From Methylobacter sp. (GTDB lineage: Bacteria > Pseudomonadota > Gammaproteobacteria > Methylococcales > Methylomonadaceae), in assembly GCA_030679035.1 (NCBI GenBank), contig JAUXTH010000149.1:1-64000 (forward strand): a stretch of 64,000 bases of DNA, written 5' to 3'. Below the pieces are notes generated by a model, which worked only from the letters and a program-made list of their open reading frames with translations, made no database searches and had not been told where the DNA came from. This document shows positions 34,675 through 54,344 of the stretch, piece after piece. The position numbers were made by a program, and so were the translations under genes. Position 1 is the first letter of the stretch. Every line of letters starts with the position of its first letter.

Positions 34675-35860
34675 TTGCACCTCCCGGTATCGCCAGGGAT
34701 GATGTGGATGGAGCGGGAGCAACGGCCGGAATAACGTCAACGGTAATTTGGAAGTGCTCCTGACCGCTGGTTTTATCCTGCGTGACCGGTGACACGAATC
34801 GGGCGTTGGCAAACATTTCAGAGTCTTCCAGGATGCCGAGTAACGCCGAAGCGGCGGGCGATTCGCCCTGTATTTGCAGATGCCCGTCCGAGTACTGTAA
34901 ATAGCCCGCCCAGGTATCGTCCTTCATTAACGTGCTTAAGGTATTGAGCATATCGGCTACCGTCGGGGCCGCACTTTTCTCTGCGATCAACAGTTTTGTT
35001 TCGTCTATCATCGCATCGATCTCCTGCTGCAAGACCTTGACTCCCTTGGCATCCTTTTCTATAGCATCGATTTTTTCCTGCAAGTCATTGACCGTCTGAT
35101 ATTCAAACCAAACCGGCAGCACCAGCACCGCGCCCAGCAGCAAACATGCTGTCGCAATCAGAGCCGTATAAATCAGGCGCGGAGCAGTTGCGGTTTTTTC
35201 CCTCATCCCTTCCGGCAATAAATTGTAACCGTCATAGCGATGCTCAAGATCATTTGGCGTCGCTTCATAATCAACGAATAGCGGCGACATGCCCATCGCC
35301 GTGAGGTCTTCATACAGCGCATCCAGTATTTCCCTAGGCGTTAACACCAGCATGACTCTGATTTGTCCAGGCTCATGCTCACCCTCCAGCGGCTTAACCG
35401 CAAAATAAACCTGTTCCGCCCTAAACGGCGTATAGCGATCAAGCTCATAGGAGACAACCTGGGACAGGTTTTCTTTTGCGGCAGCCGGCAGGGCCAGCTC
35501 TTTTTGAATAGCCTCTTGCCCGGTCAGCCGGAGTATTAAATTCGCTTTAGCCAGTCGATCATCCTGGGCCAACAGAGTTTTATACTGGGCTATGCCCGAT
35601 GCGTTGCGCTCCAGTATTGCCAACGGTTCGACTTGTCCATCAGCCGCGCCCATTCCCGACTGGCTTGCGGCATACCCACCTTCCCTGGCGATAACATAAG
35701 TCAGGGCTAACCGGTTGCCTTCGGGGCGAACGATAATAAAACCCTGCTTCTCAAAAACCCACTGGCTGATTTTTTCAGGCACCAGAAATTCAAGTTCGCG
35801 CAGCCACCAGCGGAAGAACTTTTTAACATCAAAATCAATTGTTGAATTCAGGTTCGGCAT
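34667..35860 (-). CDS. gspL: GspL-like type II secretion protein (PilM/PilN-type)
   Basis: Protein of 397 residues. The cytoplasmic actin-like half (about 1-230; KISQWVFEKQGFIIVRPEG, VSYELDRYTPFRAEQVYF) is followed by a transmembrane helix (about 235-255) and a coiled-coil/PilN-like periplasmic part (NDLQEKIDAIEKDAKGVKVL). It recruits the GspE ATPase to the inner-membrane platform. Residues about 56-71 (AREGGYAASQSGMGAA) are encoded by a copy of the SQSG-type palindromic repeat, and a fragment of the same repeat (34688-34712) encodes part of the C-terminus. It overlaps gspK by 26 bp. Confidence 0.82.
   Translation of the reverse strand: MPNLNSTIDFDVKKFFRWWLRELEFLVPEKISQWVFEKQGFIIVRPEGNRLALTYVIAREGGYAASQSGMGAADGQVEPLAILERNASGIAQYKTLLAQDDRLAKANLILRLTGQEAIQKELALPAAAKENLSQVVSYELDRYTPFRAEQVYFAVKPLEGEHEPGQIRVMLVLTPREILDALYEDLTAMGMSPLFVDYEATPNDLEHRYDGYNLLPEGMREKTATAPRLIYTALIATACLLLGAVLVLPVWFEYQTVNDLQEKIDAIEKDAKGVKVLQQEIDAMIDETKLLIAEKSAAPTVADMLNTLSTLMKDDTWAGYLQYSDGHLQIQGESPAASALLGILEDSEMFANARFVSPVTQDKTSGQEHFQITVDVIPAVAPAPSTSSLAIPGGASD
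34688..34712. repeat. Family-1 repeat fragment at the gspL 3-prime end
   Basis: TATCGCCAGGGATGATGTGG corresponds to the first part of the family-1 repeat (TATCGCCAGGGATGGTGTG in glnE). The palindromic second half is missing. Confidence 0.55.
35650..35693. repeat. Family-1 repeat inside gspL
   Basis: On the minus strand it reads TATCGCCAGGGAAGGTGGGT then ATGCCGCAAGCCAGTCGGGA. The first 35 bases agree with the glnE copy (52237-52285) at 33 positions. The two copies are in opposite orientation relative to their genes, yet the palindromic core gives SQSG in both proteins. Confidence 0.78.
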
Positions 35861-36851
35861 ACTGTCTCACTAGTAACTGATTTTTTTCGTCGGTAAATAA
35901 TGAAGCATCGACGACAACACTGCGCTGCCATTTCAGCGCCTGGAACGGCGACGAGCCCACAGTATCCGATCTTTTTATCAGCACCTTGATCATGGCCGTT
36001 GTGCCGTCGCCCAATCGCGCTTCGGTAACAACCGTAATCGCGCCTTTTTGTTCTATCCCGTTATTGACGACTGCTGCGGGTGCGTTTCCAATTCCCGCGC
36101 CAGCTCCCGACTGGCTAGCGGCATTCACACCAAATGCCGGCGCGGGCAAGCCGTTTATCGCGCTTTCCCGCCTGGCTGCAATATAGCCGTCTATCAATTC
36201 GGCATCCATTCCCGGCAGCACCTGCAAAACTTCTTTACTCGCCAGAGTCAAATCAACTGCGGGCTGTCCCGAATAAACCGTGACCAGACTTTCAAGCCAA
36301 TTAAAGACCTGCTCATTCATGCCCAATACCAACTGCAATTCCTCGATCGATTGAAACGGCTTGTTGCGAGGCCGGTAACTTAATCCCGCGTCTTTATATT
36401 CTTCTTTCTCCGCGCCCTCTAAGCGCACCAGATCATCCGCATCACGCCAATCGAGAATCGCGTTGACCAGCTTGGTTTGCAATTCCTCCTCCACAGGCGC
36501 ATGAAGCATAAGCCCCTGCAACAGTGTTTGATTCGCGCTGTTTATATCCACCTTGCCTGTTTCAGACAGCAGCTGAACTCGGACTTTCGACTCCGTGTAA
36601 TCTATTTGGTAGATACTGCCGTCAGCGCGCCAGCGTTGCAGCTGGTCAGGACTCATCAGCATCAGCTCGGCAACGGCAAGTCCTGATTCAGCAACGGCCT
36701 CGGCCTGGGCATTACTGCTGCTGCCGGCCACAATAGCCGCTTCCCGCCGCATACTGAGCGCAAAACTACCGGCCATAATGGTCAGCAGACTCAACACCCA
36801 CAAAACCAGAACCAGCGCGAAGCCCCCTGACTTGATCAAAGACCTGATCAT
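35835..36851 (-). CDS. gspK: Minor pseudopilin GspK
   Basis: Protein of 338 residues. A short leader before a hydrophobic helix (GGFALVLVLWVLSLLTIMAG) matches GspK, which lacks the +5 Glu of other pseudopilins. The globular part has the GspK signature (ETGKVDINSANQTLLQGLM, ILDWRDADDLVR, YRPRNKPFQSIEELQLVLGM). GspK forms the tip complex with GspI and GspJ. Residues about 241-251 (NAASQSG and neighbours) come from the family-1 repeat. It overlaps gspJ by 4 bp and gspL by 26 bp. Confidence 0.87.
   Translation of the reverse strand: MIRSLIKSGGFALVLVLWVLSLLTIMAGSFALSMRREAAIVAGSSSNAQAEAVAESGLAVAELMLMSPDQLQRWRADGSIYQIDYTESKVRVQLLSETGKVDINSANQTLLQGLMLHAPVEEELQTKLVNAILDWRDADDLVRLEGAEKEEYKDAGLSYRPRNKPFQSIEELQLVLGMNEQVFNWLESLVTVYSGQPAVDLTLASKEVLQVLPGMDAELIDGYIAARRESAINGLPAPAFGVNAASQSGAGAGIGNAPAAVVNNGIEQKGAITVVTEARLGDGTTAMIKVLIKRSDTVGSSPFQALKWQRSVVVDASLFTDEKNQLLVRQYAEPEFNN
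36100..36131. repeat. Family-1 repeat inside gspK
   Basis: CCAGCTCCCGACTGG is the palindromic core, followed by CTAGCGGCATTCACACC, which parallels CTTGCGGCATACCCACC in gspL. It is read in the same frame (AASQSG). Confidence 0.7.
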
Positions 36852-37690
36852 TTGCGATCCTCTACCGATTCGGTCGCATTTCCCATGTTTGCTTCAATCC
36901 CTACGCCTACAGCTTTTAGCTCTATAATCATTTCCGGCCAGAAAATGCCATTTTCAGTGCCGATGCTGATTTTGACTAATCGGGGCTGAACCTCTTTTTC
37001 CAGCCATTCATCCTGCCAACGGCTTTCACCCGTGTCATCAGCGCCAAAATAAGCCAGCTCAAAATCGCTGACACGTCTTAACAGAACCACCTCTTCCTGG
37101 CGCCATTCTTCGCCCTCGGTCACCGGCAAAAACGGCGTTAAGGTCACATTGATAACCTGCTCGCCATCTTGTTGCTGCGGCTGTATCGAAAACAACTGCA
37201 TGCCTGATCTACCGGCGCTTGCAGGAAAAACAGAGACAAACTGCAAGGACTGTTTTTTGCCTTGAAAAGACAATATCCTGTCCTGGTTTTCGGTTTCCGC
37301 GTCATCTCTCCTATGTCGATCTCCGGCCTGCATGCCATCCCCGCCGGCTCCCGGCTGGTTTGCAGCGCTCACCCTATCCCTGACGGTAAAATCATTCCAT
37401 AAAGGAATAGCCGAGGATAAATGCCGCTGGAAAAAGTTATAGACCACCGCGACCTCATTCACATCGGTTATCTTTCTTTCTCCCTGCTCCCAGCTTTGCG
37501 CGCAAATTCTCAGGCTGGCAAACAACAGAACCACCATCATGCTTAACAGGGTCATGGCGATCAAAACCTCAATCAGCGTAAAACCCGTCGCGGTTCTTAA
37601 GTCCGGTGTGGCATTGGAAAAATGGTGCGCGATGCGCACCCTACCGCCTTGAACCTTGAACCTTGAACCTTGCGCCTGAATTTGCCTCAT
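36848..37690 (-). CDS. gspJ: Minor pseudopilin GspJ
   Basis: Protein of 280 residues with a type III prepilin signal (T-A-T-G before FTLIEVLIAMTLLSMMVVLL). The leader before the cleavage Gly is 36 residues long, against 5-10 usually. It is stretched by a 7-bp tandem repeat (37647-37674, encoding SRFKVQG) and a hairpin repeat (37624-37640). The mature part (FQRHLSSAIPLWNDFTVRD, DFELAYFGADDTGESRWQDE) is GspJ-like. Residues about 106-116 (SAANQPGAG) derive from the family-1 repeat. It overlaps gspI and gspK by 4 bp. The true start could lie downstream of the repeats, but no ATG is available there. Confidence 0.82.
   Translation of the reverse strand: MRQIQAQGSRFKVQGGRVRIAHHFSNATPDLRTATGFTLIEVLIAMTLLSMMVVLLFASLRICAQSWEQGERKITDVNEVAVVYNFFQRHLSSAIPLWNDFTVRDRVSAANQPGAGGDGMQAGDRHRRDDAETENQDRILSFQGKKQSLQFVSVFPASAGRSGMQLFSIQPQQQDGEQVINVTLTPFLPVTEGEEWRQEEVVLLRRVSDFELAYFGADDTGESRWQDEWLEKEVQPRLVKISIGTENGIFWPEMIIELKAVGVGIEANMGNATESVEDRK
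37344..37373. repeat. Family-1 repeat inside gspJ
   Basis: CCGGCTCCCGGCTGG is the core, followed by TTTGCAGCGCTCACC. It is the most diverged copy, giving AANQPG where the others give AASQSG, in the same frame. Confidence 0.58.
37624..37640. repeat. Perfect hairpin in the gspJ leader region
   Basis: GGTGCGC, GAT, GCGCACC: a 7-bp perfect stem inside the coding region for the GspJ leader. Probably another dispersed REP-type repeat. Confidence 0.6.
37647..37674. repeat. 7-bp tandem repeat (CCTTGAA)x4 in the gspJ leader
   Basis: Three exact CCTTGAA units and one CCTTGCG, translated on the minus strand as part of QGSRFKVQG. The unit length is not a multiple of three, so a change of one or two units shifts the frame. 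Confidence 0.8.
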
Positions 37691-38103
37691 AACACTTTGT
37701 TCGCCAGCTTTAAGCTGATTAGCTCAACCTGCCTGCCATCGGCTGCAACATTACCATCCCCCCAGTCTACGGTGACCTTGACCTTAAAAAGCACTGCCGG
37801 TATGGTCGTGACATCCAAGTTCTCAGCCGTAAATTGGAACGGACTGACAGCCACTTGCCACCGGTATTTTTCATTTTCCAAACCGGCAGTTTGGTTCGGC
37901 TGCAACGGCGCTTCCACGCCTGTTTGGGCCATTAAAGACTCGGCAATCTGCACGGCTGCGGTATATTCCTCGGCAACTCCGGCGGTATTTACGCCGGCGG
38001 AAAATATCTTCAGCAAAATCCCTAAGGAAAGCGCCAGGATTGAAAACGCAATCAGTATCTCCAGTAAAGAAAAGCCGCGCTGTCTATTTGCTTTCAAGTT
38101 CAA
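37687..38103 (-). CDS. gspI: Minor pseudopilin GspI
   Basis: Protein of 138 residues with a short ten-residue leader and prepilin cleavage site (RQRG before FSLLEILIAFSILALSLGIL). Features such as AVQIAESLMAQTGVEAPLQP and YRWQVAVSPF match GspI. The start codon appears to be TTG (38103, or the next TTG at 38097), within the end of gspH, so translation probably depends on coupling to gspH. Overlap of 4 bp with gspJ. Confidence 0.83.
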   Translation of the reverse strand: MNLKANRQRGFSLLEILIAFSILALSLGILLKIFSAGVNTAGVAEEYTAAVQIAESLMAQTGVEAPLQPNQTAGLENEKYRWQVAVSPFQFTAENLDVTTIPAVLFKVKVTVDWGDGNVAADGRQVELISLKLANKVL

Positions 38104-38617
38104 TCTGCCCGGTTAACCAGTTTATGTCGATTTTCCATGCTGCATTGCCTCGCTCCAGCGTGATTCTTCCTCCGGTAGAAGAGCCGTCGGCAAAAAAGCG
38201 GATGCTCGCCGAGCCCTCCCCGGTCAATTCGGTTTGCGCCGTCACCACGGTAATATCAATAGTCTCGGGTATTTGATAATGCTTGTCCCGACCTGTGACC
38301 GTGTAGCTGTTGTCGCTAAGATTAACGGCAACCGTGGCATCCTGATGGGTCATTAAAGCCTGACCTTTGGCATAACGTAGCGCTGAAACAATGTCCCTTG
38401 CCGCCGCCTTGATTTGGGTAGAGTCGTTCCCTGATGACAGGTTAAGACCGATTACCGAGAAACCCAGCACCACGACAAAAAGCACTACGGTCAACTCCAG
38501 CAGAGTAAAGCCGCGCTGGCGCGAGACACAAGGCACAAGGTACAAGGTACAAGAGGAGGAATACGGGGGCTTTACACCTTGAACCTTGAACCTTGAACCT
38601 TTCACCTCAAAACTCAC
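38084..38617 (-). CDS. gspH: Minor pseudopilin GspH
   Basis: Protein of about 177 residues with a clear prepilin site (RQRG before FTLLELTVVLFVVVLGFSVI) and a GspH-like body (AARDIVSALRYAKGQALMTH). The start is uncertain: I take the GTG at 38617, which overlaps the gspG stop as GTGA. The leader is then about 36 residues, far longer than normal, because two 7-bp tandem repeats (38528-38555 and 38576-38602) lie between the start and the cleavage site. A start inside this region, such as a TTG near the second array, would give a normal leader. Confidence 0.75.
   Translation of the reverse strand: MSFEVKGSRFKVQGVKPPYSSSCTLYLVPCVSRQRGFTLLELTVVLFVVVLGFSVIGLNLSSGNDSTQIKAAARDIVSALRYAKGQALMTHQDATVAVNLSDNSYTVTGRDKHYQIPETIDITVVTAQTELTGEGSASIRFFADGSSTGGRITLERGNAAWKIDINWLTGQIELESK
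38528..38555. repeat. 7-bp tandem repeat (ACAAGGT)x4 in the gspH leader
   Basis: Units ACAAGGC, ACAAGGT, ACAAGGT, ACAAGAG. The array is the reverse-complement type of the CCTTGAA arrays and lies in the leader coding region of gspH. Confidence 0.72.
38576..38602. repeat. 7-bp tandem repeat (ACCTTGA)x4 at the gspH start
   Basis: Three exact ACCTTGA units and a degenerate fourth, just inside the proposed gspH start. Translated as GSRFKVQG, the same peptide as in the GspJ leader. Confidence 0.78.
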
Positions 38618-39069
38618 TCCCAACTAACAATATCCTGATCTTCGCCCTCGCCGCCTTCCTTGCCATCCGCCCCCAAGGTGTACAAATCGAATTTTCCATG
38701 CTCTCCGGGAGATGCATAATGATATTCCTGCTGCCATGGATCGAGCGGCATTTTGGCTTTGCGCAAATAAGGGCCATTCCAGCGTTTCGCGCTGTCGGGG
38801 GATTCAATCAAGGCCGTCAAACCTTGCTCGGAACTCGGATAATTGCCCAAATCCAGTTTGTACATATCCAAAGCAGCCGCCAGATCTTCAATTTGCACCT
38901 TTGCCGCTTTAGTCTTGGATTCGCCCATATGCTTCATTACCTGCGGCCCGACTATCCCGGCAAGCATCGCAATAATGCCCAGCACCACCAATAACTCAAG
39001 CAGGGTAAAACCACGAAGACGCGCCTTGAACCTTGCACCTTGAATCTTGAACCTCGTCACCTGTTTCAT
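38614..39069 (-). CDS. gspG: Major pseudopilin GspG
   Basis: Protein of 151 residues. The prepilin site (LRG before FTLLELLVVLGIIAMLAGIV) is followed by the GspG signature (MKHMGESKTKAAKVQIEDLA, LDLGNYPSSEQGLTALIESP, LPLDPW-type motif MPLDPWQQEYHYASPG) and a C-terminal calcium-site region (FDLYTLGADGKEGGEGEDQD). GspG builds the shaft of the pseudopilus. The 20-residue leader contains RFKIQGARFKA, encoded by a 7-bp tandem repeat. ATG with AGGAAAAC upstream. Confidence 0.9.
   Translation of the reverse strand: MKQVTRFKIQGARFKARLRGFTLLELLVVLGIIAMLAGIVGPQVMKHMGESKTKAAKVQIEDLAAALDMYKLDLGNYPSSEQGLTALIESPDSAKRWNGPYLRKAKMPLDPWQQEYHYASPGEHGKFDLYTLGADGKEGGEGEDQDIVSWE
39024..39051. repeat. 7-bp tandem repeat (CCTTGAA)x4 in the gspG leader
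   Basis: Units CCTTGAA, CCTTGCA, CCTTGAA, TCTTGAA, about 20 bp inside the gspG start codon. Confidence 0.75.
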
Positions 39070-39084
39070 GATGTTTTCCTATAT

Positions 39085-40299
39085 TTAAAAAGCCAAATCA
39101 TTAACACTCAAAATAGCCAGCAGAATCGACACGATGATGCCCGCAATCATCACGCCTAATGAAATTATCAGCGCCGGTTCCAGCAAAGCCAGCATTCGCT
39201 GTATCGCCACCCTAAGCTGCTTATCGTAAATCATCGCCACCCGCAGCAGCATTTCCTCCAGGCGTCCGGTCTCTTCGCCCATTTTTATCATCTGCATAGC
39301 CATTTTTGGGAAGATGCCTTTTTCCATCAAGGCATCCGACAGGTGTTTCCCCTGTTTTAACTGTTGTTCGGCATCCTGAATGGCCCCCGCCAAAACCTGG
39401 TTATCCACCGTTTCGCGAACAATAACCAGAGCCGTCAGTATCGAAACGCCGTTACCCAATAACGTGCCCAACGTGCGACTGATGTTGGCGGTTTCCTTGT
39501 TCAGAATAATCATCCCGGCCAGCGGCAGTTTCAAAAAACGGCCGTCCCAAACCTTCTTTCTGACCGGATCAGCCAGCTGAAGATTCATATAACCGGTGAT
39601 CAAGACAACGCCCAAAACCAGCACCCACCAATAGCTTTGCAACCATTCCGCCAGCCCCACCACGATCTGGGTCGATACCGGCAGCGCCTTGCCCGCGCTT
39701 TCAAACATCTCGGAAAATTGCGGCACCACAAAAGTCAGCATCACAAAAAGCGAGGCCAACGACATAATCAACAAGATGGCCGGGTAGATCAATGCCGTGC
39801 TGACCGTTTCTTTCAATTCCCGAGAGCGCTCCAGGTATTCGGACAAGCGCGTCAATACTTCGCCCAGGCTACCGCCGGCCTCACCTGCCCGTATCATGTT
39901 CAGGTAAAACTTGCTGAAAATGCCGGACTGCTTTTCCAGCGCATCGGCCAGTGTGGAGCCGCCTTTTACCTTCTCCAGCACCCTGCCGATCAACTTGGCC
40001 ACCCGTTCGTTGTCTTCGGTCAGGTCGATCAACACCAGCAAAGACTTATCCAAAGGCAAGCCGGACTCCAACAAGGTTGCCAATTCGCCGGTGAACAAGG
40101 CGATGTCTTTTTGCGATAATTTAGACTGCTTGATACCTAGTCTCAAACCCAAAAACGATTTGGCGCTGGCCGGTACTACGCGGATAGGGATATAGCCTTC
40201 AGTCTGCAAAATCGCAATCAACTGCTGCTCATCAACCGCGTCTCTGACCCCCTCTTCGGTTTCCCCCAGACTATTAACCGCTTTATAGGCAAATAACAT
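39085..40299 (-). CDS. gspF: Type II secretion inner-membrane protein GspF
   Basis: Polytopic platform protein, 404 residues from the ATG at 40299 (LFAYKAVNSLGETEEGVRDA is the family start). Two T2SF domains are seen (IALFTGELATLLESGLPLDK ... MIRAGEAGGSLGEVLTRLSEYL and ISRTLGTLLGNGVSILTALV ... MIKMGEETGRLEEMLLRVAM), each followed by transmembrane helices. In-frame ATGs upstream at 40329 and 40371 exist, but the sequence there is the palindromic repeat 40334-40417, so longer starts are unlikely. It lies between gspE and gspG. Confidence 0.88.
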   Translation of the reverse strand: MLFAYKAVNSLGETEEGVRDAVDEQQLIAILQTEGYIPIRVVPASAKSFLGLRLGIKQSKLSQKDIALFTGELATLLESGLPLDKSLLVLIDLTEDNERVAKLIGRVLEKVKGGSTLADALEKQSGIFSKFYLNMIRAGEAGGSLGEVLTRLSEYLERSRELKETVSTALIYPAILLIMSLASLFVMLTFVVPQFSEMFESAGKALPVSTQIVVGLAEWLQSYWWVLVLGVVLITGYMNLQLADPVRKKVWDGRFLKLPLAGMIILNKETANISRTLGTLLGNGVSILTALVIVRETVDNQVLAGAIQDAEQQLKQGKHLSDALMEKGIFPKMAMQMIKMGEETGRLEEMLLRVAMIYDKQLRVAIQRMLALLEPALIISLGVMIAGIIVSILLAILSVNDLAF

Positions 40300-40333
40300 T
40301 AGATTGAGCTGTGAACTAACGTAAGCCATAAAC

Positions 40334-40417
40334 GGAGCCGCGACTTCAGTCGCGCATGAGCGTTCATGCATAGGCGGTGATAATAACTGCCATCACCGCG
40401 ACTGAAGTCGCGGCTCC
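40334..40417. repeat. 21-bp perfect inverted repeat between gspE and gspF
   Basis: GGAGCCGCGACTTCAGTCGC(G) at 40334-40354 is the exact complement of 40397-40417, with 42 bp between. Each arm is also self-palindromic. The same arm occurs alone at 30-50. It could form a long hairpin in the gsp transcript before gspF. Confidence 0.85.
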
Positions 40418-40453
40418 AAACGCCCTGAAATTTAAAGCAGCTACCGAATAACA

Positions 40454-42148
40454 TTAGGCTTCCGAAGTGACCCGTAGTACTTCTTCAATGGTAGTAATGC
40501 CTTGCAGAGCCTTAACCAGACCATTCTCATACATCGTCGTCATACCTTCCTCAATGGCAAGCCGTTGAATCGCCCCGGCTTCTTCATGCGCCATAATCAA
40601 TTTGCGGAGCGGATCGGTCATTTGCAAAAATTCAATAATCGCCAAGCGTCCACGGTAACCTAATCCCCCGCATGATGGGCAGCCGACCGGTTTGTACAGA
40701 ACAATTTCCCCCGCAGGCGCAAACCGTCTTAACCTCATGCCGTCAATGATGTCCTGGGGCGGCGTATAACGTTGCTTGCACTCAGGGCACAGTTTTCTTA
40801 CCAGACGTTGCGCCAATATGCCGTTGACGGTGGAGGTGAGCAGATATTCTTCCAACCCCATGTCCAGCAAGCGGGTAACACCGCCCGCCGCGTCATTGGT
40901 ATGCAGCGTCGATAACACCAAGTGTCCGGTTAACGCCGATTGTACGGCGATTCTTGCGGTCTCCAGATCGCGCATTTCGCCGATCATGATCACGTCGGGA
41001 TCTTGGCGCACGATAGAACGTAATGCCGAAGCAAAAGTCAGGCCTATTTGCGGTTTGGCCTGAATCTGATTGACGCCGTCCATCTGGTATTCCACCGGAT
41101 CTTCAACGGTGATGATTTTTCGCTCGGAGGTGTTCAGCTGTTTTAGCGCGGCATACATCGTGGTCGATTTTCCGCTACCGGTCGGACCGGTAATCAGGAT
41201 AATGCCGTGCGGCTGAGACAGCACTTCAATAAACTGTTGCAAATGTTTGCCGGAAAAGCCCAGTGCGGCAAAATCCAGCACCGTGCTTTCCTTGTCCAGC
41301 AAGCGAATTACCACGCTTTCGCCGTACATCGTCGGTATCGTCGAAACCCGCAAATCCAGCTCCTTGCCCAGCATTTGCACTTTGATGCGGCCATCCTGCG
41401 GCAGACGGCGTTCGGCGATATTCAGCTTGGCCATGATCTTGATACGGGAAATCACCGCTGCGGTGGATTTGACCGACGGAGCGTCTATTTCCTTTAACAC
41501 GCCGTCGACACGCAGCCTGACTTTTAGGGATTGCTCAAAGGGTTCGATGTGAATGTCCGAGGCTCGGGTTTCAATCGCCCGCTGCATGATCAGGTTGACC
41601 ATTTTGATTACCGGCGCTTCACTGGCCAGATCTTTCAAATGCTCCAGGTCTTCCTCACCCAAATCATCGGCAGTTTGATCGCCAACGAGTTGATCCATTT
41701 GCGAACGGCCTTCGCCATACTGCACTTCCAGCGCAGCATCGATTTCCGAAAGCAGGCCGACTTTGGGGATGATATTTTTTCCGGTCGCCAGTTTTAACGC
41801 ATCAATCACAAATCGGTCTTCGGGATCCATCAGCGCAACGGTAATATCGTCATTGTGACCGCCATTTTTACCCAAGCCGATGACATGATAGTTTTTTAGA
41901 AACCGTAACGGTACGGTTTCCGGCAGTTGCATTTCCAGCGGATAGTGATCCGGCGTAACCTTTTCAAACCGTCCCGATTCAACAAAAGCATCGGCCACAT
42001 CCAGCTCCGAACACAAGCCCAGCTTGACCAACAACTGCGGCACGCTTTCCGATACCGAGGTTTTTTGCACACGCTCAACTTTTTTCAGTTCTGCAACTGA
42101 AAGTTTATGTTTGTCCTGCAAAACGGTTAGCAGCGATTCATATGCCAT
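40454..42148 (-). CDS. gspE: Type II secretion ATPase GspE
   Basis: Cytoplasmic ATPase of 564 residues, first gene of the gsp operon. N1E-type N-terminal domain, then GPTGSGKSTTMY (Walker A), an Asp box (ITVEDPVEYQ), Walker B-like (MIGEMRDLETARIAVQSALT) with a His box (STLHTNDAAGGVTRLLDMGL), and a four-cysteine zinc motif (KLCPECKQ ... GCPSCGGLGYRGR). It powers pseudopilus growth. The Glu/Met form GEMRDLETA instead of GEIRDxETA is common in this branch. PilB of type IV pili is the main alternative, but the operon settles it. Confidence 0.92.
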   Translation of the reverse strand: MAYESLLTVLQDKHKLSVAELKKVERVQKTSVSESVPQLLVKLGLCSELDVADAFVESGRFEKVTPDHYPLEMQLPETVPLRFLKNYHVIGLGKNGGHNDDITVALMDPEDRFVIDALKLATGKNIIPKVGLLSEIDAALEVQYGEGRSQMDQLVGDQTADDLGEEDLEHLKDLASEAPVIKMVNLIMQRAIETRASDIHIEPFEQSLKVRLRVDGVLKEIDAPSVKSTAAVISRIKIMAKLNIAERRLPQDGRIKVQMLGKELDLRVSTIPTMYGESVVIRLLDKESTVLDFAALGFSGKHLQQFIEVLSQPHGIILITGPTGSGKSTTMYAALKQLNTSERKIITVEDPVEYQMDGVNQIQAKPQIGLTFASALRSIVRQDPDVIMIGEMRDLETARIAVQSALTGHLVLSTLHTNDAAGGVTRLLDMGLEEYLLTSTVNGILAQRLVRKLCPECKQRYTPPQDIIDGMRLRRFAPAGEIVLYKPVGCPSCGGLGYRGRLAIIEFLQMTDPLRKLIMAHEEAGAIQRLAIEEGMTTMYENGLVKALQGITTIEEVLRVTSEA

Positions 42149-42386
42149 TATCCTGAAAAACCGGTTGGTATTTTATTAGTGTCTTTAGAATAGGAGGTTC
42201 AACTTCTCCAAGCAATTAGTAGAAATACCTATCCGGCGATCTGGTTATTGAGCTGAATGGATTAAATTAACAAAGCTTCAGGTATGATTAATACTAAGAG
42301 CAAACCCTAAGGTCAAATCTTACTGATTGGTTTCCGCCAAGTAGGGAGCGTATCGCACGCTATTTACGAATATCAGAATGACTGGG
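42149..42386. other. Intergenic before gspE; gsp promoter region
   Basis: The region should contain the promoter of the gsp operon and the 3-prime end of the large NTPase gene. I see no gene and no clear terminator; AT content is high. Confidence 0.45.
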
Positions 42387-46391: not shown

Positions 46392-46518
46392 GAATTTAAT
46401 CCAGCCAGTAATCAGATGAGTGTTGGTGTCAGGGGAGCAAGTCTAATATTATTTGTCTAACGTATCAGGGCGTAGGGGGTGCTGAACGCAATGTAGCATA
46501 TAGGTATAGAAAACCAAC
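46392..46518. other. Short intergenic upstream of the NACHT gene
   Basis: Nothing recognisable apart from a possible promoter for the NACHT-type gene. The IS110 insertion lies only 140 bp from its start codon. Confidence 0.4.
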
Positions 46519-46532
46519 CGTCATCCCGGCAG
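46519..46532. repeat. Left fragment of the repeat split by IS110
   Basis: CGTCATCCCGGCAG is the first 14 bases of the dispersed repeat whose remainder starts at 47782 (AGGGAATGCCGGGATCC). The intact complementary arm is at 47881-47912. Confidence 0.8.
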
Positions 46533-46554
46533 ATACCGTCTTAAAGTCGGAAAA

Positions 46555-47526: not shown

Positions 47527-47579
47527 AGATATACACTCCAAAATGAGAAATAATGAAACAACCTTTTGAGTTTATTAAG

Positions 47580-47750
47580 AAACCACTCACTAAGTTCAGC
47601 CTTATTCATACAAGCTCGAAGCCTAAGTATACCGTTCGAACTATACTAGCGAGTGTGGATGGTGGAGGAGTTCAATCTGCCGGTCAGGCTTTAAGCCTCA
47701 GGGATAGCACGACTTCCTCCTCCATCCTCCCGATGATCAGTCGGGGATTC
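47580..47750 (-). ncRNA. Candidate bridge RNA of the IS110 element
   Basis: Read on the minus strand, a 5-prime hairpin (CCCGA ... TCGGG, 47729-47745) is followed by two stem-loops. The first (stem 47717-47727 with 47657-47670) encloses TATCCCT (47700-47706) and CCGGCAG (47677-47683) around an AGGCTT/AAGCCT hairpin. CCGGCAG is complementary to CTGCCGG of the actual target; TATCCCT shares TCCCT with its left half. The second (9-bp stem 47647-47655 with 47584-47592, plus AGTTC/GAACT) encloses ACGGTAT (47629-47635), identical to the element's own right end, and a complement of CTTAT (47601-47605), its left end. Order (target loop, then donor loop) is that of IS621. Confidence 0.72.
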
Positions 47751-47781
47751 TGGCCCTTTGAGGGAGTAGAATCAAGATATA

Positions 47782-47912
47782 AGGGAATGCCGGGATCCAG
47801 GTCACAGGGATGTGAAAATCAAAAAAGGTTCCATGCTGCTAAAAATGGTTAGCAAGATCGGAGACAACCATCCATGGCTTCTGGATCCCGGCATTCCCTG
47901 CCGGGATGACGA
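47782..47912. repeat. Right part of the repeat split by IS110
   Basis: From GGGAATGCCGGGATCCAGG to CTGGATCCCGGCATTCCC then TGCCGGGATGACG, the ends are complementary. Together with 46519-46532 it forms a large palindromic element of about 145 bp, the same family as the inner part of 4616-4841. No gene inside. Confidence 0.75.
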
Positions 47913-47970
47913 GTTTATCTGGTTCCATACAGCACGGGGGAACCGAAAAAAACCATAAATCCAGTTTTAT

Positions 47971-48975
47971 TTACAGCGACAATAAAAACTTCGCCTGCTC
48001 AATAATTTCACGTTCATCAATGTCCTTAATCGAATAATCCTGCTTGTTGAGTTTATACGGATTGACGATTGACGCGGACTTGACCACTTTGTTGATGTCG
48101 GTTTGGTAAACCCGGCTGACCGGGGTTGGGCCGAAGATGGTGATTGACGGCCTATTTAATCCCCAGGCCATATGGGTCGGGCCGGTGTCGTTGCCGATCA
48201 GTAAGTCGGCTTTGGCTATCAGCGCTTTCAGGCTGTTCAAATCCAGCTTGGGCATGACTTTGATCAGGTCGGATTGCGCCGCCATCCACTCTGCTGCGGC
48301 TTTTTCCTGCTCGCTACCCCAAACGACCAGGCAGTTTTGCTGTAACGCCTCGGCTATTTTTACAAACTTGGCGGCCGGATAGTTGCGGCTGTCCCAGGTT
48401 GAGCCGATCACCAGCACTATATTGAGCCGGTCTTTTGACAGGAAATCGTATATTTGCGGGTCTTCGTTGTTGAAAAACAGGAACGGCTTTTTATTGAGGA
48501 TTTGCTCGGTGATGATGTTAATCCCTAACGGGCTGGACAGTATCAGGGCATTTCTGTCGATGGTATTGGCATCGTAGGCGCAGGCCACTTTGACGTCATA
48601 AAACCATGATGCGGCTTTTTCCCGGATTGAATCGGCATCGAATCCGGCGATGCATTTTCCCTTTCCTATGAACTTGGCGGTGACCGCCGATTTAATCAGC
48701 CCTTGGGCGTCGATAACCAGGTCATAGTTGTTGTTTGCATAGCTGCGAATCTTTTTAAGCTGCGCAAAAATTCCGGCCTTGTTGGTTTTTAAGGCTTTCA
48801 GGTTAACCGTCAGAATGTTATCGATATCGGGATTGTGTTTTAAAACCTCGGCGAAGCGTTCTTCAACGATCCAGTCAATCTGGATTTGGGGGGAATGCGC
48901 CTTGATGAACTGTAACGCTACCATCGCATGCACGATGTCTCCCAGAGCCGAGAGTTTTACGATGGCGACTTTCAC
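47971..48975 (-). CDS. waaC: LPS heptosyltransferase I
   Basis: GT9 glycosyltransferase of 334 residues. KVAIVKLSALGDIVHAMVAL at the start and IGNDTGPTHMAWGLNRPSIT near the end are typical for WaaC, which adds the first L-glycero-D-manno-heptose to Kdo in the LPS inner core. The start is GTG, overlapping the waaF stop (GTGA). It is the second gene of a two-gene waaF-waaC operon. Other heptosyltransferases are possible, but the VDAQGLIKSA-type motif (VIDAQGLIKSAV) supports type I. Confidence 0.88.
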   Translation of the reverse strand: MKVAIVKLSALGDIVHAMVALQFIKAHSPQIQIDWIVEERFAEVLKHNPDIDNILTVNLKALKTNKAGIFAQLKKIRSYANNNYDLVIDAQGLIKSAVTAKFIGKGKCIAGFDADSIREKAASWFYDVKVACAYDANTIDRNALILSSPLGINIITEQILNKKPFLFFNNEDPQIYDFLSKDRLNIVLVIGSTWDSRNYPAAKFVKIAEALQQNCLVVWGSEQEKAAAEWMAAQSDLIKVMPKLDLNSLKALIAKADLLIGNDTGPTHMAWGLNRPSITIFGPTPVSRVYQTDINKVVKSASIVNPYKLNKQDYSIKDIDEREIIEQAKFLLSL

Positions 48976-50000
48976 TTAGGCCCTGATTGGGTAAGCGTTA
49001 TCAATTCAAGCACCCGATCGGGCGTGATGCCGGTCAGACAATGGGTGTGGCCTAGCGGGCATTCGCGCTTGAAACAGGGCGCGCAGTCAAGATTTAACGA
49101 GATAACCTGGGCCTTGTCGTTCAGCGGCGGCGTAAAGCCCGGATCCGACGAGCCGTAAATGGCGATGATTTTTTTATCCAATGCAGCGGCGACATGCATC
49201 AAGCCGGAATCGTTGGTCACCACGGTATTGGCCAGCGACATCAAATCGACCGCCTCGGCTAATGAGGTTCTGCCGGTGAAATCGGTGCAGAACCCGGAAC
49301 ACTCTTTGTTGATTTGTTCTGCGACAGCTTTATCCTTATCGGAGCCGAACAGCCAGACCTGCCAGCCTTGGTCGATCTTTTGCCGGGCGACTTCGGCGTA
49401 ATACTCGGTCGGCCAGCGCTTTGCCGGGCCGTATTCGGCGCCGGGGCATAAGGCCAGGGTCTTCACCGATGGTGTTAATTTGAATTTATCGATAACGACT
49501 TGTTGCCGATCTTTACTAATCGTTATCACAGGCTTTGGGCATACCGGCGGCGTAGACGCATCGACTGGCAGGCCCAGGGCGACGAAACGCTGCACGGTCA
49601 TGGTCAGCAGGTTCTTATCCAGTTTCCTGGCGTCGTTAAGCAAGCCCCAGCGGCATTCGCCGATGTAGCCGGTACGAATGGGGATATTGGCAAAGAACGG
49701 GGGGATTGCGGATTTCCAGGAATTCGGCAGTAGGATGGCCTGATCGTAGCCTTCCGAGCGTAAACTTTTGCCCAGTCTGATGCGCTCCATCAAGCCGAAC
49801 TTGCCTCGCGGCAGCGGCATGGCAATGGCTTTGGTCACTTCGGGCATTCTTTCCAGCAGGGATAATGTCCATGACGGCGCCAGCACGTCAATCCGGCAAT
49901 CGGGGCGGGTGTTTTTCAGGGCGATAAAAAGGCTTTGCGCCATCACCATATCGCCGACCCAGGAGGGACCGACGATTAGAATCTTGTGATATTTTTTCAA
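48972..50000 (-). CDS. waaF: LPS heptosyltransferase II
   Basis: GT9 enzyme of 342 residues. ILIVGPSWVGDMVMAQSLF, ILLPNSWKSAIPPFFANIPI then RTGYIGECRWGLLNDAR, FCPGAEYGPAKRWP-like (LCPGAEYGPAKRWPTEYYAE) and VTNDSGLMHVAAAL are WaaF signatures. It transfers the second heptose of the LPS core. The start appears to be TTG (followed by two AAA codons); no ATG is near. Coupled to waaC by a 4-bp overlap. Confidence 0.92.
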   Translation of the reverse strand: MKKYHKILIVGPSWVGDMVMAQSLFIALKNTRPDCRIDVLAPSWTLSLLERMPEVTKAIAMPLPRGKFGLMERIRLGKSLRSEGYDQAILLPNSWKSAIPPFFANIPIRTGYIGECRWGLLNDARKLDKNLLTMTVQRFVALGLPVDASTPPVCPKPVITISKDRQQVVIDKFKLTPSVKTLALCPGAEYGPAKRWPTEYYAEVARQKIDQGWQVWLFGSDKDKAVAEQINKECSGFCTDFTGRTSLAEAVDLMSLANTVVTNDSGLMHVAAALDKKIIAIYGSSDPGFTPPLNDKAQVISLNLDCAPCFKRECPLGHTHCLTGITPDRVLELITLTQSGPK

Positions 50001-50026
50001 GACCTTACCTGATATTCATAAGTCAT

Positions 50027-50099
50027 GTAGGGTACGCTGCGCGTACCTTTATGGAGCTTGGGGCGATGCTTGGAAAACGGTACGCGAAGCGTACCCTAC
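50027..50099. repeat. Inverted repeat GTAGGGTACGC ... GCGTACCCTAC
   Basis: Arms of about 20 bp (GTAGGGTACGCTGCGCGTACC type against GGTACGCGAAGCGTACCCTA) separated by about 30 bp. A dispersed-repeat type, possibly ending the ilvE transcript. Confidence 0.65.
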
Positions 50100-50174
50100 G
50101 TTACTGTTTTATCTTCGACTTCAACCGACCAAAGCAAGCTTTGGACTCCAAATATCACATCACGGACATCCTGA

Positions 50175-50194
50175 GTTCAAAGCGAGCTTTGAAT
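50175..50194. repeat. Short hairpin repeat (copy of 165-184)
   Basis: GTTCAAAG, CGAG, CTTTGAAT. Same hairpin as at 165-184 with the loop reversed. Confidence 0.55.
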
Positions 50195-50252
50195 ACGAAG
50201 CGACACGAAACTTTATGTTTCTTTCTTCGTAGTTAAATTTTTTTAAAAGCCT

Positions 50253-51176
50253 TTAAGCAACGTAAGTCAACCAGTCGGCATGATCGGCTCTGCGTCCATG
50301 CACATAGTCGAAATACAGCGACTGCAACTGCTGGGTGACGGGGCCACGGCTGCCGGAACCGATTACACGGTTATCCAGTTCCCTGATCGGCGTCACTTCA
50401 GCCGCAGAACCGGTAAAGAACGCTTCATCGGCCACGTAAATCTCATCGCGGGTAATGCGTTTTTCAATCACTTCATAACCTTGCTCTCTGGCGACCGTCA
50501 TGACCGTCTCGCGGGTAATGCCTTCCAGCGCCGAGGTGGTTTCCGGGGTATAAATTTTACCGTTGCGTACGATAAACAGGTTTTCGGCGCTGCCTTCCGC
50601 CGCGAAACCTTCATGATCCAGCATCAACGCTTCGTCGTAACCATTGGCGCGCGCTTCTTGTAACGCCAGAATCGAATTGATGTAATTGCCGTTGGCTTTG
50701 GCTTTGCACATGGTGCTGTTGTGATGGTTGCGGGTATAAGACGAGGTGCGAATGCGGATGCCTTGTTCTATGCTTTCCGCGCCCAGATACGCGCCCCACG
50801 ACCATGCGGCAACCATGACATGGACTTTTAGGTTGTCGGCTCTCAAGCCCATGCCTTCGGAACCTAAAAAGCACATGCTGCGGATATAGGCGCTGTCCAG
50901 GTTGTTCTTGGCAACCGCATCGCGCTGAACTTGATTCAGTTCGTCTTTGCCGTACGGCATTTTCATATTCATGATATGCGCGGAACGGAACAGGCGGTCG
51001 GTATGATCCTGCATCTTGAAAATCGCCGTGCCTTTTTCCGCGTGATAAGCACGTATGCCTTCAAACACGCCCAAGCCGTAATGCAAGGTATGCGTCAACA
51101 CATGGACTTTAGCTTCGCGCCACTCAACCCACTTTCCATCCAGCCAAATAACGCCATCTCTGTCGTCCATCGTCAT
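50253..51176 (-). CDS. ilvE: Branched-chain amino acid aminotransferase
   Basis: PLP-dependent transaminase of 307 residues, making Val, Leu and Ile from their 2-oxo acids with glutamate. THTLHYGLGVFEGIRAY, the lysine region CKAKANGNYINSILALQEA, DEALMLDHEGFAAEGSAENL and TGSAAEVTPIRELD are class IV aminotransferase signatures of IlvE (E. coli 309 residues). Monocistronic by position; the next gene upstream (glnE) is 246 bp away across a repeat. Confidence 0.95.
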   Translation of the reverse strand: MTMDDRDGVIWLDGKWVEWREAKVHVLTHTLHYGLGVFEGIRAYHAEKGTAIFKMQDHTDRLFRSAHIMNMKMPYGKDELNQVQRDAVAKNNLDSAYIRSMCFLGSEGMGLRADNLKVHVMVAAWSWGAYLGAESIEQGIRIRTSSYTRNHHNSTMCKAKANGNYINSILALQEARANGYDEALMLDHEGFAAEGSAENLFIVRNGKIYTPETTSALEGITRETVMTVAREQGYEVIEKRITRDEIYVADEAFFTGSAAEVTPIRELDNRVIGSGSRGPVTQQLQSLYFDYVHGRRADHADWLTYVA

Positions 51177-51225
51177 CGTTTATTCTCCAATATTAAGTTT
51201 ATTTGTTACTACTCAGCAGCCAAAA

Positions 51226-51389
51226 TAGAACGCTGATGACGCTGATCATTATGATTAAATAAGATTTTTCTTTTTTGCGTTTAAACTTTGATTTCTTACT
51301 AAGCTTTAAGACCAAACCCACTTTCAGTAACGTCCAAATAGTTATAATTATCCGCGTTAATCATAATTATCAGCGTCATCTGCGTTCCA
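51226..51389. repeat. Inverted pair of GAACGC-GATGACGC repeats
   Basis: GAACGCTGATGACGCTGATC at the left and the complement-type ATCAGCGTCATCTGCGTTC at the right, about 165 bp apart, as in 30184-30343. It fills the ilvE-glnE gap. Confidence 0.55.
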
Positions 51390-51422
51390 TCTTATTTTGA
51401 TGGCGCTTACTTGTGGATGCCG

Positions 51423-54344
51423 CTACCCCATGTATTCATGCCAAATCTGCTCGACTTGAGCGCTCATTTTGGCGACCTCGGCCTCAGCTATAACCGCCTT
51501 ATCCCCTTGTAAAACCTGTTTATGCCCGAAATCCCGATAGGTGCAGTAAGCGGCTTTAAGTAATTCCGCATCGGCTTGAGACATAAAGCCCTGCTGTTGT
51601 AAGCCTTCAAGCAGCCTGACATTATCGGTATAGGTCGTCAGCGCTACATTAAGAGCCGCCTGATCCAATATGCCAAATTGTACTATAAACTCAATATCAG
51701 CAATACCGCCTTTGCTTTGTTTTAGGTCAAACTTGTCCTTATCTTTGGTAGCCAGGGCTTCACGCATTTTCTCGCGCATCTCGCGGACTTCTTTTTTCAA
51801 GCTCTCGGTATCCCTGGGCAAGCTCAAAATCCGGCTGCGTATGGCTTCATACTGTACTTTCAACTGCGGATCGCCTGCGATGAACCGCCCCCTGACCAGC
51901 GCCTGCAGCTCCCAAGTCCAGGCTTCATTTTTCAGGTAATCTTCATAGGCGTTGATATGCGTGACCAGCAACCCGGAGTCGCCATTGGGGCGCAGACGCA
52001 TATCCACTTCGTAAAGCACGCCGGACAGCATCTTGGTATCGAGAATATGCCTGACTTTCAGTCCCAGACGGCCGTAAAACTGGGCGCAGGAAATCGGTTT
52101 GTCTCCGTCGGTCATCGCATTGCCGTCCTTGCAATCGTACAAAAATACCAGATCCAGGTCGGAACCGTACCCCAACTCGATACCGCCCAGTTTGCCGAAG
52201 CCGATCACCGCAAAGCCTATCGAGCTATTATCGGTATATCGCCAGGGATGGTGTGTATGCCGCAAGCCAGTTCCCGACTGGCTCGGCACCGGCGGCAAGC
52301 CATGCTTGTCTGTCAGCATACGCCACGCCCGTTCGACAACATGACTGACGATACTTTCGGCGATATAGGTCAGGTAATCGCTGACCACCATCAGCGGGAT
52401 TGCGCCCATAATGTCGGCGGCGGCCACTCTCAGCACATTCAGTTGCTTGAACTGGCGCAGTATGACCATCAATTGCTCAAGGTCCTGCACCTCAATTTGA
52501 GCCAGCAAAACCTTAAGCTGCTCGTCAAGATCGGCTTTTTTGAGCGGCTCGTAAAGGGAACGGGTATCGAGCAATTCGTCGAACAACACAGGATACTGCG
52601 ATAAATAATCGCAAATCCACGGACTGGCCGATGACAGCCTGATTAATTGCGACAAGGCGCCGGGATTTTCGGACAATAACGATAAATACACATTCCGGCC
52701 CGCGACCGCCTCAAACAAGCCGAGTATCCGCAGCAAGGTTTCATCCGGGTTAGCAACTTGCTGCATGGCCTCTATCAGCTGCGGCATTAACCGGTCAAGC
52801 ACACCCGCACCCTTGGTCGTCAGCCTTCTGACGGCGGCGGAATTTTTAAAATCTTTTATCGCGGCAAGGATTGCGCCGGTATCTTGTATGCCCCATTCTT
52901 TTAAATGATCCATCAACTCCGAGTCATCCGCCACGCAAGCCCAAACTATTCCGGTTCGTGGTGAGCCTGCCGAACCATCGTGTTTCGATAGCGAAAAAAC
53001 CTGGTCGAAGACTTCGTGTACCTGCGTCCTCACCTTGTCCAGATCCTGTTTAAAGCTAGTCCAATCGGAATAGTCCAGCGAATACGCCAATATCCGCTGT
53101 GCAGTCGGGTCTTTCGGCAAATCGTGGGTTTGCTGATCTTGATATTGCTGGATATGGTTTTCCACCCGGCGCAGGAAGCGATACGACTGCTTTAATTGCT
53201 CGGCATCTTTTTGCGCCAGCAATTCCCGCTCGCCCAGCAGTTGCAAAACATCCAGAATGGGGCGGGTTTGCAAGGCTTTGTCATTGCCGCCGCGTATCAA
53301 TTGAAACGCCTGACCAATAAATTCGATTTCGCGTATGCCGCCCGGCCCCAGCTTGATATTTTCCATGCGGTCTTTGCGCCGCAACTCCTGGGTAATTTGC
53401 GCCTTTAACGAGCGTAATTCTTCAAACGCGCCGTAATCGAGATAGCGCCGGTAGACAAATGGCCTGAACATAGCCATCAATTGCGCACCGACCTTAAAAT
53501 CGCCCGCAACCTGGCGCACCTTGATCATCGCATATCGCTCCCATTCCCTGGCCTGGGTCTGGTAATAGTTTTCCATGCCGTCAAAGGTCATGATGATCGG
53601 GCCGCTGTCGCCATACGGCCTTAAGCGTATGTCGGTGCGGAATACAAAACCGTCTACGGTAATCTCATCCAAGACTTTAATTAGATTACGGCACAGCTTG
53701 GTAAAAAACTCGCCGTAGCTGGTTTCCTTCCTATCCTGCAACACACCTTCTTCCGCATAGGCGAAAATCAGGTCGATGTCGGAAGAATAATTCAATTCAT
53801 AAGCGCCCAGTTTGCCCATGCCCAACACCACGATCTGCTGCGGGCTGCCGTCGGATAATAACGGCGTGCCGCGCAGTTCGCAGGCCTCCTGATAGAGAAA
53901 ATCCAATGCGTATTGGGTACAGGCATCGGCCAGATGCGATAAATCGGCCAGCGTTTCCGATAATTCGGCCCAACCGGCCAAATCCCGCCAAGCTATCCTG
54001 ATCATTTCCCTGCGCCGGAAGTCGCGCAGTTTCGTCATTAACTCGGATTGTGAGTCAACCGGCGTATGCGCTAATTTTTCGGCATAACTGTTCTCATTAT
54101 AAATAGCCGATAAATCGCCGGAGTTGACCAGATCGACCAGCAGCTCAGGCTTGCGTGTGCAGCTTTCGGCAATAAACAGGCTGGAACACCAGACCTTGGC
54201 GATCGATGCACTAACCTCAGGAGATTGGGAAATATTAAGCTCCACAAGCCGTTCATCCAGCTTAGTCAGCGAGGCGACCACCATTGCCCGTAACTCGTCA
54301 GGCAGCGCAGCAAATTCGGATTCGAGGTTTTTGATAAAAGACAT
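51423..54344 (-). CDS. glnE: Glutamine synthetase adenylyltransferase/deadenylase
   Basis: Bifunctional enzyme of 973 residues that adenylylates and deadenylylates glutamine synthetase in response to PII. Two nucleotidyltransferase domains are visible: the N-terminal deadenylase part (LGKLGAYELNYSSDIDLIFA) and the C-terminal adenylase part (GFGKLGGIELGYGSDLDLVF). LKLGPGGIREIEFIGQAFQL and KQSKGGIADIEFIVQFGIL are the paired helper motifs. Residues about 687-703 (from PSQSGTGLRH to HPWRYT), just before the second domain, are encoded by a dispersed palindromic repeat, in frame. Length is otherwise as in E. coli (946). ATG with TCCTCC-like complement GGAGG overlapping. Confidence 0.93.
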   Translation of the reverse strand: MSFIKNLESEFAALPDELRAMVVASLTKLDERLVELNISQSPEVSASIAKVWCSSLFIAESCTRKPELLVDLVNSGDLSAIYNENSYAEKLAHTPVDSQSELMTKLRDFRRREMIRIAWRDLAGWAELSETLADLSHLADACTQYALDFLYQEACELRGTPLLSDGSPQQIVVLGMGKLGAYELNYSSDIDLIFAYAEEGVLQDRKETSYGEFFTKLCRNLIKVLDEITVDGFVFRTDIRLRPYGDSGPIIMTFDGMENYYQTQAREWERYAMIKVRQVAGDFKVGAQLMAMFRPFVYRRYLDYGAFEELRSLKAQITQELRRKDRMENIKLGPGGIREIEFIGQAFQLIRGGNDKALQTRPILDVLQLLGERELLAQKDAEQLKQSYRFLRRVENHIQQYQDQQTHDLPKDPTAQRILAYSLDYSDWTSFKQDLDKVRTQVHEVFDQVFSLSKHDGSAGSPRTGIVWACVADDSELMDHLKEWGIQDTGAILAAIKDFKNSAAVRRLTTKGAGVLDRLMPQLIEAMQQVANPDETLLRILGLFEAVAGRNVYLSLLSENPGALSQLIRLSSASPWICDYLSQYPVLFDELLDTRSLYEPLKKADLDEQLKVLLAQIEVQDLEQLMVILRQFKQLNVLRVAAADIMGAIPLMVVSDYLTYIAESIVSHVVERAWRMLTDKHGLPPVPSQSGTGLRHTHHPWRYTDNSSIGFAVIGFGKLGGIELGYGSDLDLVFLYDCKDGNAMTDGDKPISCAQFYGRLGLKVRHILDTKMLSGVLYEVDMRLRPNGDSGLLVTHINAYEDYLKNEAWTWELQALVRGRFIAGDPQLKVQYEAIRSRILSLPRDTESLKKEVREMREKMREALATKDKDKFDLKQSKGGIADIEFIVQFGILDQAALNVALTTYTDNVRLLEGLQQQGFMSQADAELLKAAYCTYRDFGHKQVLQGDKAVIAEAEVAKMSAQVEQIWHEYMG
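52237..52285. repeat. Family-1 repeat inside glnE
   Basis: TATCGCCAGGGATGGTGTGT, then ATGCCGCAAGCCAGTTCCCG, then ACTGGCTCG. The core GCCAGT-TCCCG-ACTGGC is a perfect 6-bp hairpin. This is the fullest copy of the family; the gspL copy shares 33 of its first 35 bases. Confidence 0.8.

Follow-up and report, generated by a model that had tools for sequence, protein, structure and literature searches.

In-frame insertion of palindromic repeats into unrelated conserved proteins, typically in non-structured segments, has been described for the Rickettsia palindromic elements (RPEs) and for the coding palindromes of Wolbachia and Methanocaldococcus in the cited portions of the literature (PMC10969869, PMC2996958, PMC2229807). 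The same sources describe RPEs as repeats of intracellular bacteria, 105-146 or about 150 bp in length, that form a long stem-loop and bear terminal inverted repeats of 12 bp (PMC2229807, PMC10969869). REPs tagged GTAG or CGTC occur singly or grouped and are mostly intergenic, and intragenic examples are reported from several bacteria including Thioalkalivibrio, in tRNA synthetase and DNA repair genes; the same account gives MITEs a length of 70-300 bp and terminal inverted repeats of 15-30 bp (PMC3733652). REPs are thought to be moved in trans by RAYTs, whose genes are stated to lie invariably between two inverted REPs (PMC2817692), and QMITE1 and QMITE2 of Coxiella, as summarized in their report, measure 150-400 bp, carry direct repeats, number in the tens of copies and overlap genes (PMC5896051).

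Reports of mobile DNA that lengthens proteins without disrupting them come mainly from Rickettsia and Wolbachia, with occasional intragenic REPs elsewhere. Here we analyze a stretch of 64,000 nucleotides from Methylobacter sp. (contig JAUXTH010000149.1, positions 1 to 64,000; hereafter the window), in which a first-pass annotation had noted a palindromic repeat within gspL, gspK, gspJ and glnE. Our main reading, to which we give a probability of roughly 0.82, is that these are copies of a non-autonomous, mobile 51-bp element that is moved by a trans-acting enzyme, inserted in-frame, translated, and tolerated in variable protein segments.

Results

Copies in the window and their host genes

An unfiltered covariance search of the window scored the following copies, listed with their host open reading frames (ORFs).

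35642..35692 (model match 35641-35693), minus strand: element in gspL, gene-sense, 68.5 bits, read as IAREGGYAASQSGMGAA
52238..52288 (model match 52237-52289), plus strand: element in glnE, antisense to the gene, 65.0 bits, hairpin 2 loop inverted
36092..36151, minus strand: decayed element in gspK, 34.0 bits, right hairpin intact and left altered
37338..37388, minus strand: decayed element in gspJ, 18.6 bits, E 0.012, core reads SAANQPGAG
34688..34725, plus strand: possible fragment of the element's left end, where gspL ends (3') and the next gene starts, 19.9 bits, E 0.0063
34667..35860, minus strand: gspL host ORF, 397 aa, Pfam PilN only, named from the first-pass annotation and operon context
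35835..36851, minus strand: gspK host ORF, 338 aa, Pfam T2SSK_1st, 5.5e-20
36848..37690, minus strand: gspJ host ORF, 280 aa, no Pfam match at 1e-5, named from the first-pass annotation and operon context
51423..54344, minus strand: glnE host ORF, 973 aa, NCBIfam NF008292, 1119.8 bits

The model thus matches all four genes named by the first-pass annotation, and every coordinate given there was reproduced on re-checking. The gspL and glnE copies are good ones; those in gspK and gspJ are decayed, and their weak scores are credible because orthologues bear recognizable element peptides in the same segments. It had further been noted that the core of every copy is read in one frame and gives SQSG (NQPG in gspJ). 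In glnE, SQSG is coincidental and arises because the hairpin 2 loop of that copy is inverted, with TCCCG in place of CGGGA. Across 115 intragenic arrays of many genomes, five of the six frames are used, and SQSG is thus no more than a part of the commonest reading.

The inverted glnE loop (52260-52285) differs in this way from 32 other aligned copies and from the filled glnE orthologues, and amounts to a flip of the palindrome center. The window holds other repeats besides: short CCTTGAAC tandem repeats near ORF boundaries of the secretion operon (37647-37680, 38577-38624, 39024-39057), a further dispersed repeat of the AACGCGGATGACGCAGATT type (9142, 30180, 51224), and a dispersed, near-identical 34-base palindromic repeat (24-57 and 40327-40360).

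Filled and empty orthologues

Searching with GlnE gives a readable site in 19 genomes of the genus (and none at three more loci); 5 of the 19 are filled, our own included, and 14 are empty. The number of residues between flanking anchors is 11 in 14 genomes, 28 in four and 45 in one, that is, gains of 17 and 34, the latter from two tandem units. The other four filled genomes read RQFPTG, SQFPTG, GQFPTG and GQFSTG. A clear element peptide is found in our GspL and in five orthologues (L241, L243, L246, L247, L261), while others are without it and the gspL site is empty in locus L110. Element peptides also occur at the segments that are decayed in our genome, in GspJ orthologues L258, L245, L241 and L246 as IAKDGVYGAGQQGAGAA and tandem forms, and in GspK orthologues L257, L260 and L261 as VLRDGVYTL or ATARDGVNDASRQGAGA.

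Three neighboring secretion genes have therefore each been hit, in variable segments. The extra peptide is absent from close relatives, as had been anticipated for an insertion, and the pattern that had been named as refuting it, orthologues in distant genera with the same peptides but no similarity at the DNA level, was not seen.

A 51-bp unit that folds into two hairpins

The unit defined by aligned copies, ATCGCC...GCGGCG, measures 51 bp and has inverted ends of 5 bp (TCGCC/GGCGA); a T lies directly 5' of 186 of 190 arrays. One of the strands folds into two hairpins, the first with a 4-bp stem and the hexaloop ANGGAT, the second with a bulged 11-bp stem and the loop NNGGA. Covariation backs this structure: in 33 copies (32 distinct), 97.1% of stem cells are paired and two-sided changes occur at 8 of 15 pairs, the covariation score is reached by none of 500 shuffles, and the signal is lost once the partners are slid. 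Variation in the hairpin 1 loop, scored in 46 copies, falls mainly on its second base (G33 A8 T5) and its last (T39 C5 A1 G1). In single-stranded DNA folding, none of 200 shuffles is as stable as a consensus-like copy or the glnE copy, but 85 of 200 shuffles fold as well as the gspL copy, whose hairpin 2 has a z of -0.13 and is decayed.

The consensus is open in all six frames. We do not regard this as a designed trait, since 617 of 5000 dinucleotide shuffles (12%) are open too. A second-hairpin test at fixed distance is failed by 18 of 257 left halves (<5/6 stem pairs), a few of which are near misses. A longer autonomous element with the same ends was sought and none traced; the stretches displayed show an altered hairpin 2 or a nested palindrome. 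In three minus-strand copies (L110, L111, L168) a different palindrome of the GGGGCGACCGGCCGGTCGCCCC type occupies the place of hairpin 2, giving nested repeats, and it resembles window positions 27889-28041.

Copy number and spread

A 30-base pattern with up to three mismatches finds 46 places (18 + 28) in the 4.79-Mb, 216-contig genome of the window and none with the reversed control, and the covariance model gives 73 matches at E <=0.01, about 55 of them of the 51-bp family and most others of a related family B. The possibility raised in the first-pass annotation, that the genome might hold no further copies, is refuted by these counts. With up to 150 candidates scored per genome, 22 of 23 Methylobacter genomes have matches at E 1e-6, from 1 to 66 each; G004 is the only one with none, and G014, G016 and G017 have 2, 1 and 5. 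A sample of 151 genomes from the order, in which at most 38 candidates were scored per genome and high counts are to be read as "at least", yields a match in 26 genomes from 12 of 44 genera, with 0-9 matches per genome outside Methylobacter. In a sample of 81 relatives a pattern search matches 27, namely our genome, 21 of 22 others of the genus, 5 of 26 from the rest of the family and none of 32 from other families.

A pattern scan of named genomes returns at least 114 stretches, mostly from Methylobacter and also from Methylovulum and Methyloglobulus, and the stretches listed include single loci from two Shewanella, Gilvimarinus, Sedimenticola, a Thiotrichaceae genome and other gammaproteobacteria. 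Five of the eight loci placed outside the order by record title lie directly 3' of a T-run. In distant gammaproteobacteria (L103, L115, L120, L129, L140) a cousin with an ATCTCC end stands right after T-runs, and several of these are terminator-like hairpins. No copy was found in viral contigs searched with the exact pattern, or in phages and plasmids searched by blastn with one copy.

Family B (GACCTCCATGGATGGAGGAAATGCCG... and partner GACCGCCAGGGATGGTGGAAGTGTCG...) is present at L208:1379-1598 and 4217-4334, at L209:1557-1608, and in L211, L213 and L216. In L208 it forms BIME-like inverted pairs, and its copies, by inspection, are partly intergenic and partly within ORFs.

Insertion site, arrays and turnover

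Comparison of locus with locus gives at least 104 candidate filled/empty pairs, a redundant set in which at least three of the listed pairs are not true empty sites (L120 against itself; L042/L086 and L072/L122, where the partner retains a remnant). Filled and empty sites differ by an insert of 51n bp with no visible target-site duplication, and the target is TTWT^NNNG. The G at +4 is found in 44/59, 16/23, 15/20 and 32/38 sites of the four classes with at least 20 sites, and of two six-site classes it holds in one and not in the other (2/6). For 68 of 114 intragenic arrays the collected loci include an orthologue that lacks the insert, counted after leaving out hits of >97% identity, hits with <25 residues on either side and hits with long gaps. 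Once the insert is removed, 44 of these 68 show no local net difference in length, 10 differ by one residue and 14 by more. The gain of 17n codons relative to empty sites, the covariation-backed structure, the many copies across one genus and the tandem arrays are direct observations.

Two to five units are present in 53 of 190 arrays (about 50 genome labels), and at six pattern-found places in our genome a second unit lies exactly 51 bp further on. Adjacent units differ on average at 6.8 of 49 bases, compared with 9.4 for units elsewhere in the same genome, and 10 of 67 adjacent pairs are identical; arrays have arisen partly by local duplication and partly by independent arrival. Since the left end of the element (T^ATCG) matches its own target, new copies may land beside old ones and so build arrays.

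Grouping by flank similarity resolves 120 distinct sites with shared boundaries and target motif. There are 42 same-site groups of loci. Copies at one site resemble each other more than copies at different sites of the same two genomes do in 47 of 49 comparisons, and many copies are therefore inherited. The right hairpin changes at a rate similar to that of flanking DNA (3.2 per 25 vs 3.8 per 24). The slower left hairpin (0.8 per 24) was dropped as evidence, because most loci come from pattern scans, which favor intact left hairpins. Of 25 same-site groups, 7 contain two-sided stem changes, most of which come from just two groups; we do not take this signal as compensatory evolution in place, since turnover by re-insertion or conversion may explain it instead.

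Position within genes, frame use and translation

We counted an array as intragenic when its ORF is 150 codons or longer and extends 30 codons to either side of it, using the 163 of 190 arrays with at least 700 bp on both sides and 815 random positions drawn from the same loci. The element does not avoid genes, being intragenic in 115/163 arrays against 584/815 random positions (p = 0.78); edge positions are somewhat enriched (37/163 vs 125/815, p = 0.03), and stretches that lack a long ORF are underrepresented (11/163 vs 106/815, p = 0.02). Hosts named by NCBIfam include dnaN, rnr, purH, lpd, mnmE, a trmJ-type methyltransferase, epmA, oligopeptidase A and glnE. Inserts counted as intragenic are all multiples of three, partly by construction, as an open frame is the condition for entry.

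Frame use is far from random. Sense and antisense arrays number 65 and 50, and 59 of the 65 sense copies read as IARDGVYAASQSGTGAA, with the Cys/Trp-rich frame at 0. Over all six frames (sense phase 0, 1, 2; antisense 0, 1, 2) we observe 59/0/6/23/6/21 against 28/10/20/24/20/14 expected from target-motif matches in the same host ORFs, the motif being trained without the commonest class (p = 6e-13), and the bias persists when each of 74 sites is counted once (p = 1e-7). When filled proteins are compared with the empty orthologue, identity is 0.75 within 8 aa of the junction and 0.84 beyond 20 aa, lower near the junction in 48 of 68 cases (p = 4e-6), a difference that could partly result from the insertion itself. 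Given non-random frames and junctions in variable segments, the insert is probably translated and filtered at the protein level (shown STATISTICALLY). Three traits would let the element survive in genes: a length divisible by three, a consensus open in every frame, and the small hydrophilic linkers (IARDGVYAASQSGTGAA) encoded by some frames. Insertions in variable segments of core proteins would accordingly be tolerated.

Candidate mobilizing enzymes

The element would insert as one to five head-to-tail units, 3' of TTWT and 5' of NNNG, with a trans-acting enzyme recognizing the folded strand and joining it at the target. Single-strand transposition of the IS200/IS605 type places its insert 3' of a short target without duplication and carries a replication-linked orientation bias. 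Y1 transposases are our first candidate because the element, too, inserts 3' of a short target without duplication and has a strand-specific hairpin pair; a single-strand-hairpin transposase of the Y1/HUH-like kind is nevertheless only a tentative assignment, somewhat more doubtful than plausible. No full copy lies within about 1.5 kb, or up to the contig end, of the 12 Y1 matches in our genome (two of which are adjacent pieces), and one partial 17-bit element match is found near them. Copy number and Y1 number over 23 genomes give a Spearman coefficient of 0.32 (p = 0.14), and G005 with 27 copies and G010 with 38 have a single Y1 match each (153.7 and 47.5 bits). Given the lack of nearby full copies and the non-significant correlation, the Y1/RAYT enzymes present were not accepted as the mobilizer. 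Orientation relative to the replication strand in G019 is 10:10 over 20 places, in a hand tally with skew taken from sampled 20-kb stretches, which excludes three family-B-like hits and a copy at a boundary; two of the twenty are near a skew switch and cancel.

A CRISPR-like array (repeat GCGTTCCCCACACCCGTGGGGATGAACCG) adjoins an IS200-like Y1 transposase gene at L228:299-1375.

Alternative explanations

The folded strand could instead be an RNA intermediate, copied by a reverse transcriptase or by some other RNA-mediated route. The structure is strand-specific and G·U is the most frequent type at pair 5-16; the target is T-rich and cousins land behind T-runs in distant genomes, much as group IIC introns do. 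A scan of eight copy-bearing loci with 4227 Rfam models, which returned no family matching the element and two sub-threshold microRNA-model matches away from it, speaks against this route, and we consider it unlikely.

The GGA loops of both hairpins might alternatively mark a working RNA, in which copies in mRNAs and spacers bind or soak up CsrA/Rsm. RsmE binds an ANGGAN hexaloop, and sites selected for CsrA by SELEX belong to this type as well (PMC7652899). Hairpin 1, C-[ANGGAT]-G, has this form, and the bases that vary are mainly its two Ns; by inspection, cousins outside the order carry GGA loops on other stems, and two-sided stem changes do occur between same-site copies. Yet nearly half of the intragenic copies are antisense, so that the mRNA has TCC, and they keep GGA loops and pairing equally: loop retention is 0.943 in 88 sense units and 0.922 in 64 antisense units, and hairpin 2 pairing 0.920 and 0.939. 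This equality suggests that the loops serve the movement of the element itself and not host mRNA. The position of five of eight cousins outside the order behind T-runs also counts against a host RNA function, which we hold to be improbable. A combined scheme, in which the repeat acts both as a selfish insert and as a CsrA/Rsm sponge or switch for the whole genome, sense copies adding both a peptide and a regulatory site and the hairpins being kept by RNA selection, strikes us as slightly less probable again.

Spread of a single original copy by recombination, duplication or conversion between repeats, with no transposition, would account for identical array neighbors as local duplication and for the closeness of same-site copies. 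Against it, the 120 sites share their boundaries and target, and many are filled in one species and empty in another; we rate it very improbable. Removal of the insert before the protein is made, as a tiny intron or by translational bypass, would explain its presence in essential genes (dnaN, purH, rnr, mnmE) and the stable hairpins of the consensus-like copy, and is scarcely credible given a strong frame filter and variable-segment junctions, neither expected if the insert never reached protein.

Discussion

We favor a mobile element that adds 17n codons to its hosts, operating in free-living methanotrophs and in core proteins including the sliding clamp, RNase R and PurH. This makes it testable how selfish DNA becomes protein sequence: going by record titles, strains such as M. 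tundripaludum SV96 and Ca. M. oryzae KRF1 are in culture, orthologues allow insertions to be dated, and which peptides proteins tolerate can be gauged from the frame filter. The mobilizing enzyme would be a compact one that inserts DNA without duplicating the target. A search of the open-access literature found no description of such an element in methanotrophs, in line with the first-pass annotation, whose likening of the repeat to RPEs is borne out by in-frame inserts in unrelated proteins, empty orthologues and many copies.

The comparison with described systems is one of partial likeness. Like IS200/IS605 elements, ours inserts after TTWT^ without duplication, the G at +4 being an extra preference. 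It shares with RAYT-mobilized REPs a hairpin repeat, but in its own genome no full copy accompanies the Y1 matches. As with the GTAG/CGTC REPs, it is a small hairpin repeat found singly or grouped inside genes; unlike them, its consensus has neither tag on either strand, and it falls within genes about as often as random positions do. QMITEs are likewise non-autonomous, present in tens of copies per genome and overlapping genes, whereas our element has 51 bp, TCGCC/GGCGA ends and no visible duplication. MITEs mostly carry a target-site duplication, and we reject membership among them on the 51-bp length, the 5-bp ends and filled and empty sites that differ by no duplication. With the palindromes of Rickettsia, Wolbachia and Methanocaldococcus it has in common that it is a palindromic repeat lying in-frame in unrelated protein genes. 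Membership in the RPE family itself is rejected, as 51 bp and two hairpins stand against 105-150 bp and one long stem, and our element differs further in its 5-bp inverted ends, 51-bp arrays, defined target and free-living methanotroph hosts. It appears on this comparison to be a new variant among the coding palindromes, closest to RPEs in behavior and distinct from them in size and fold.
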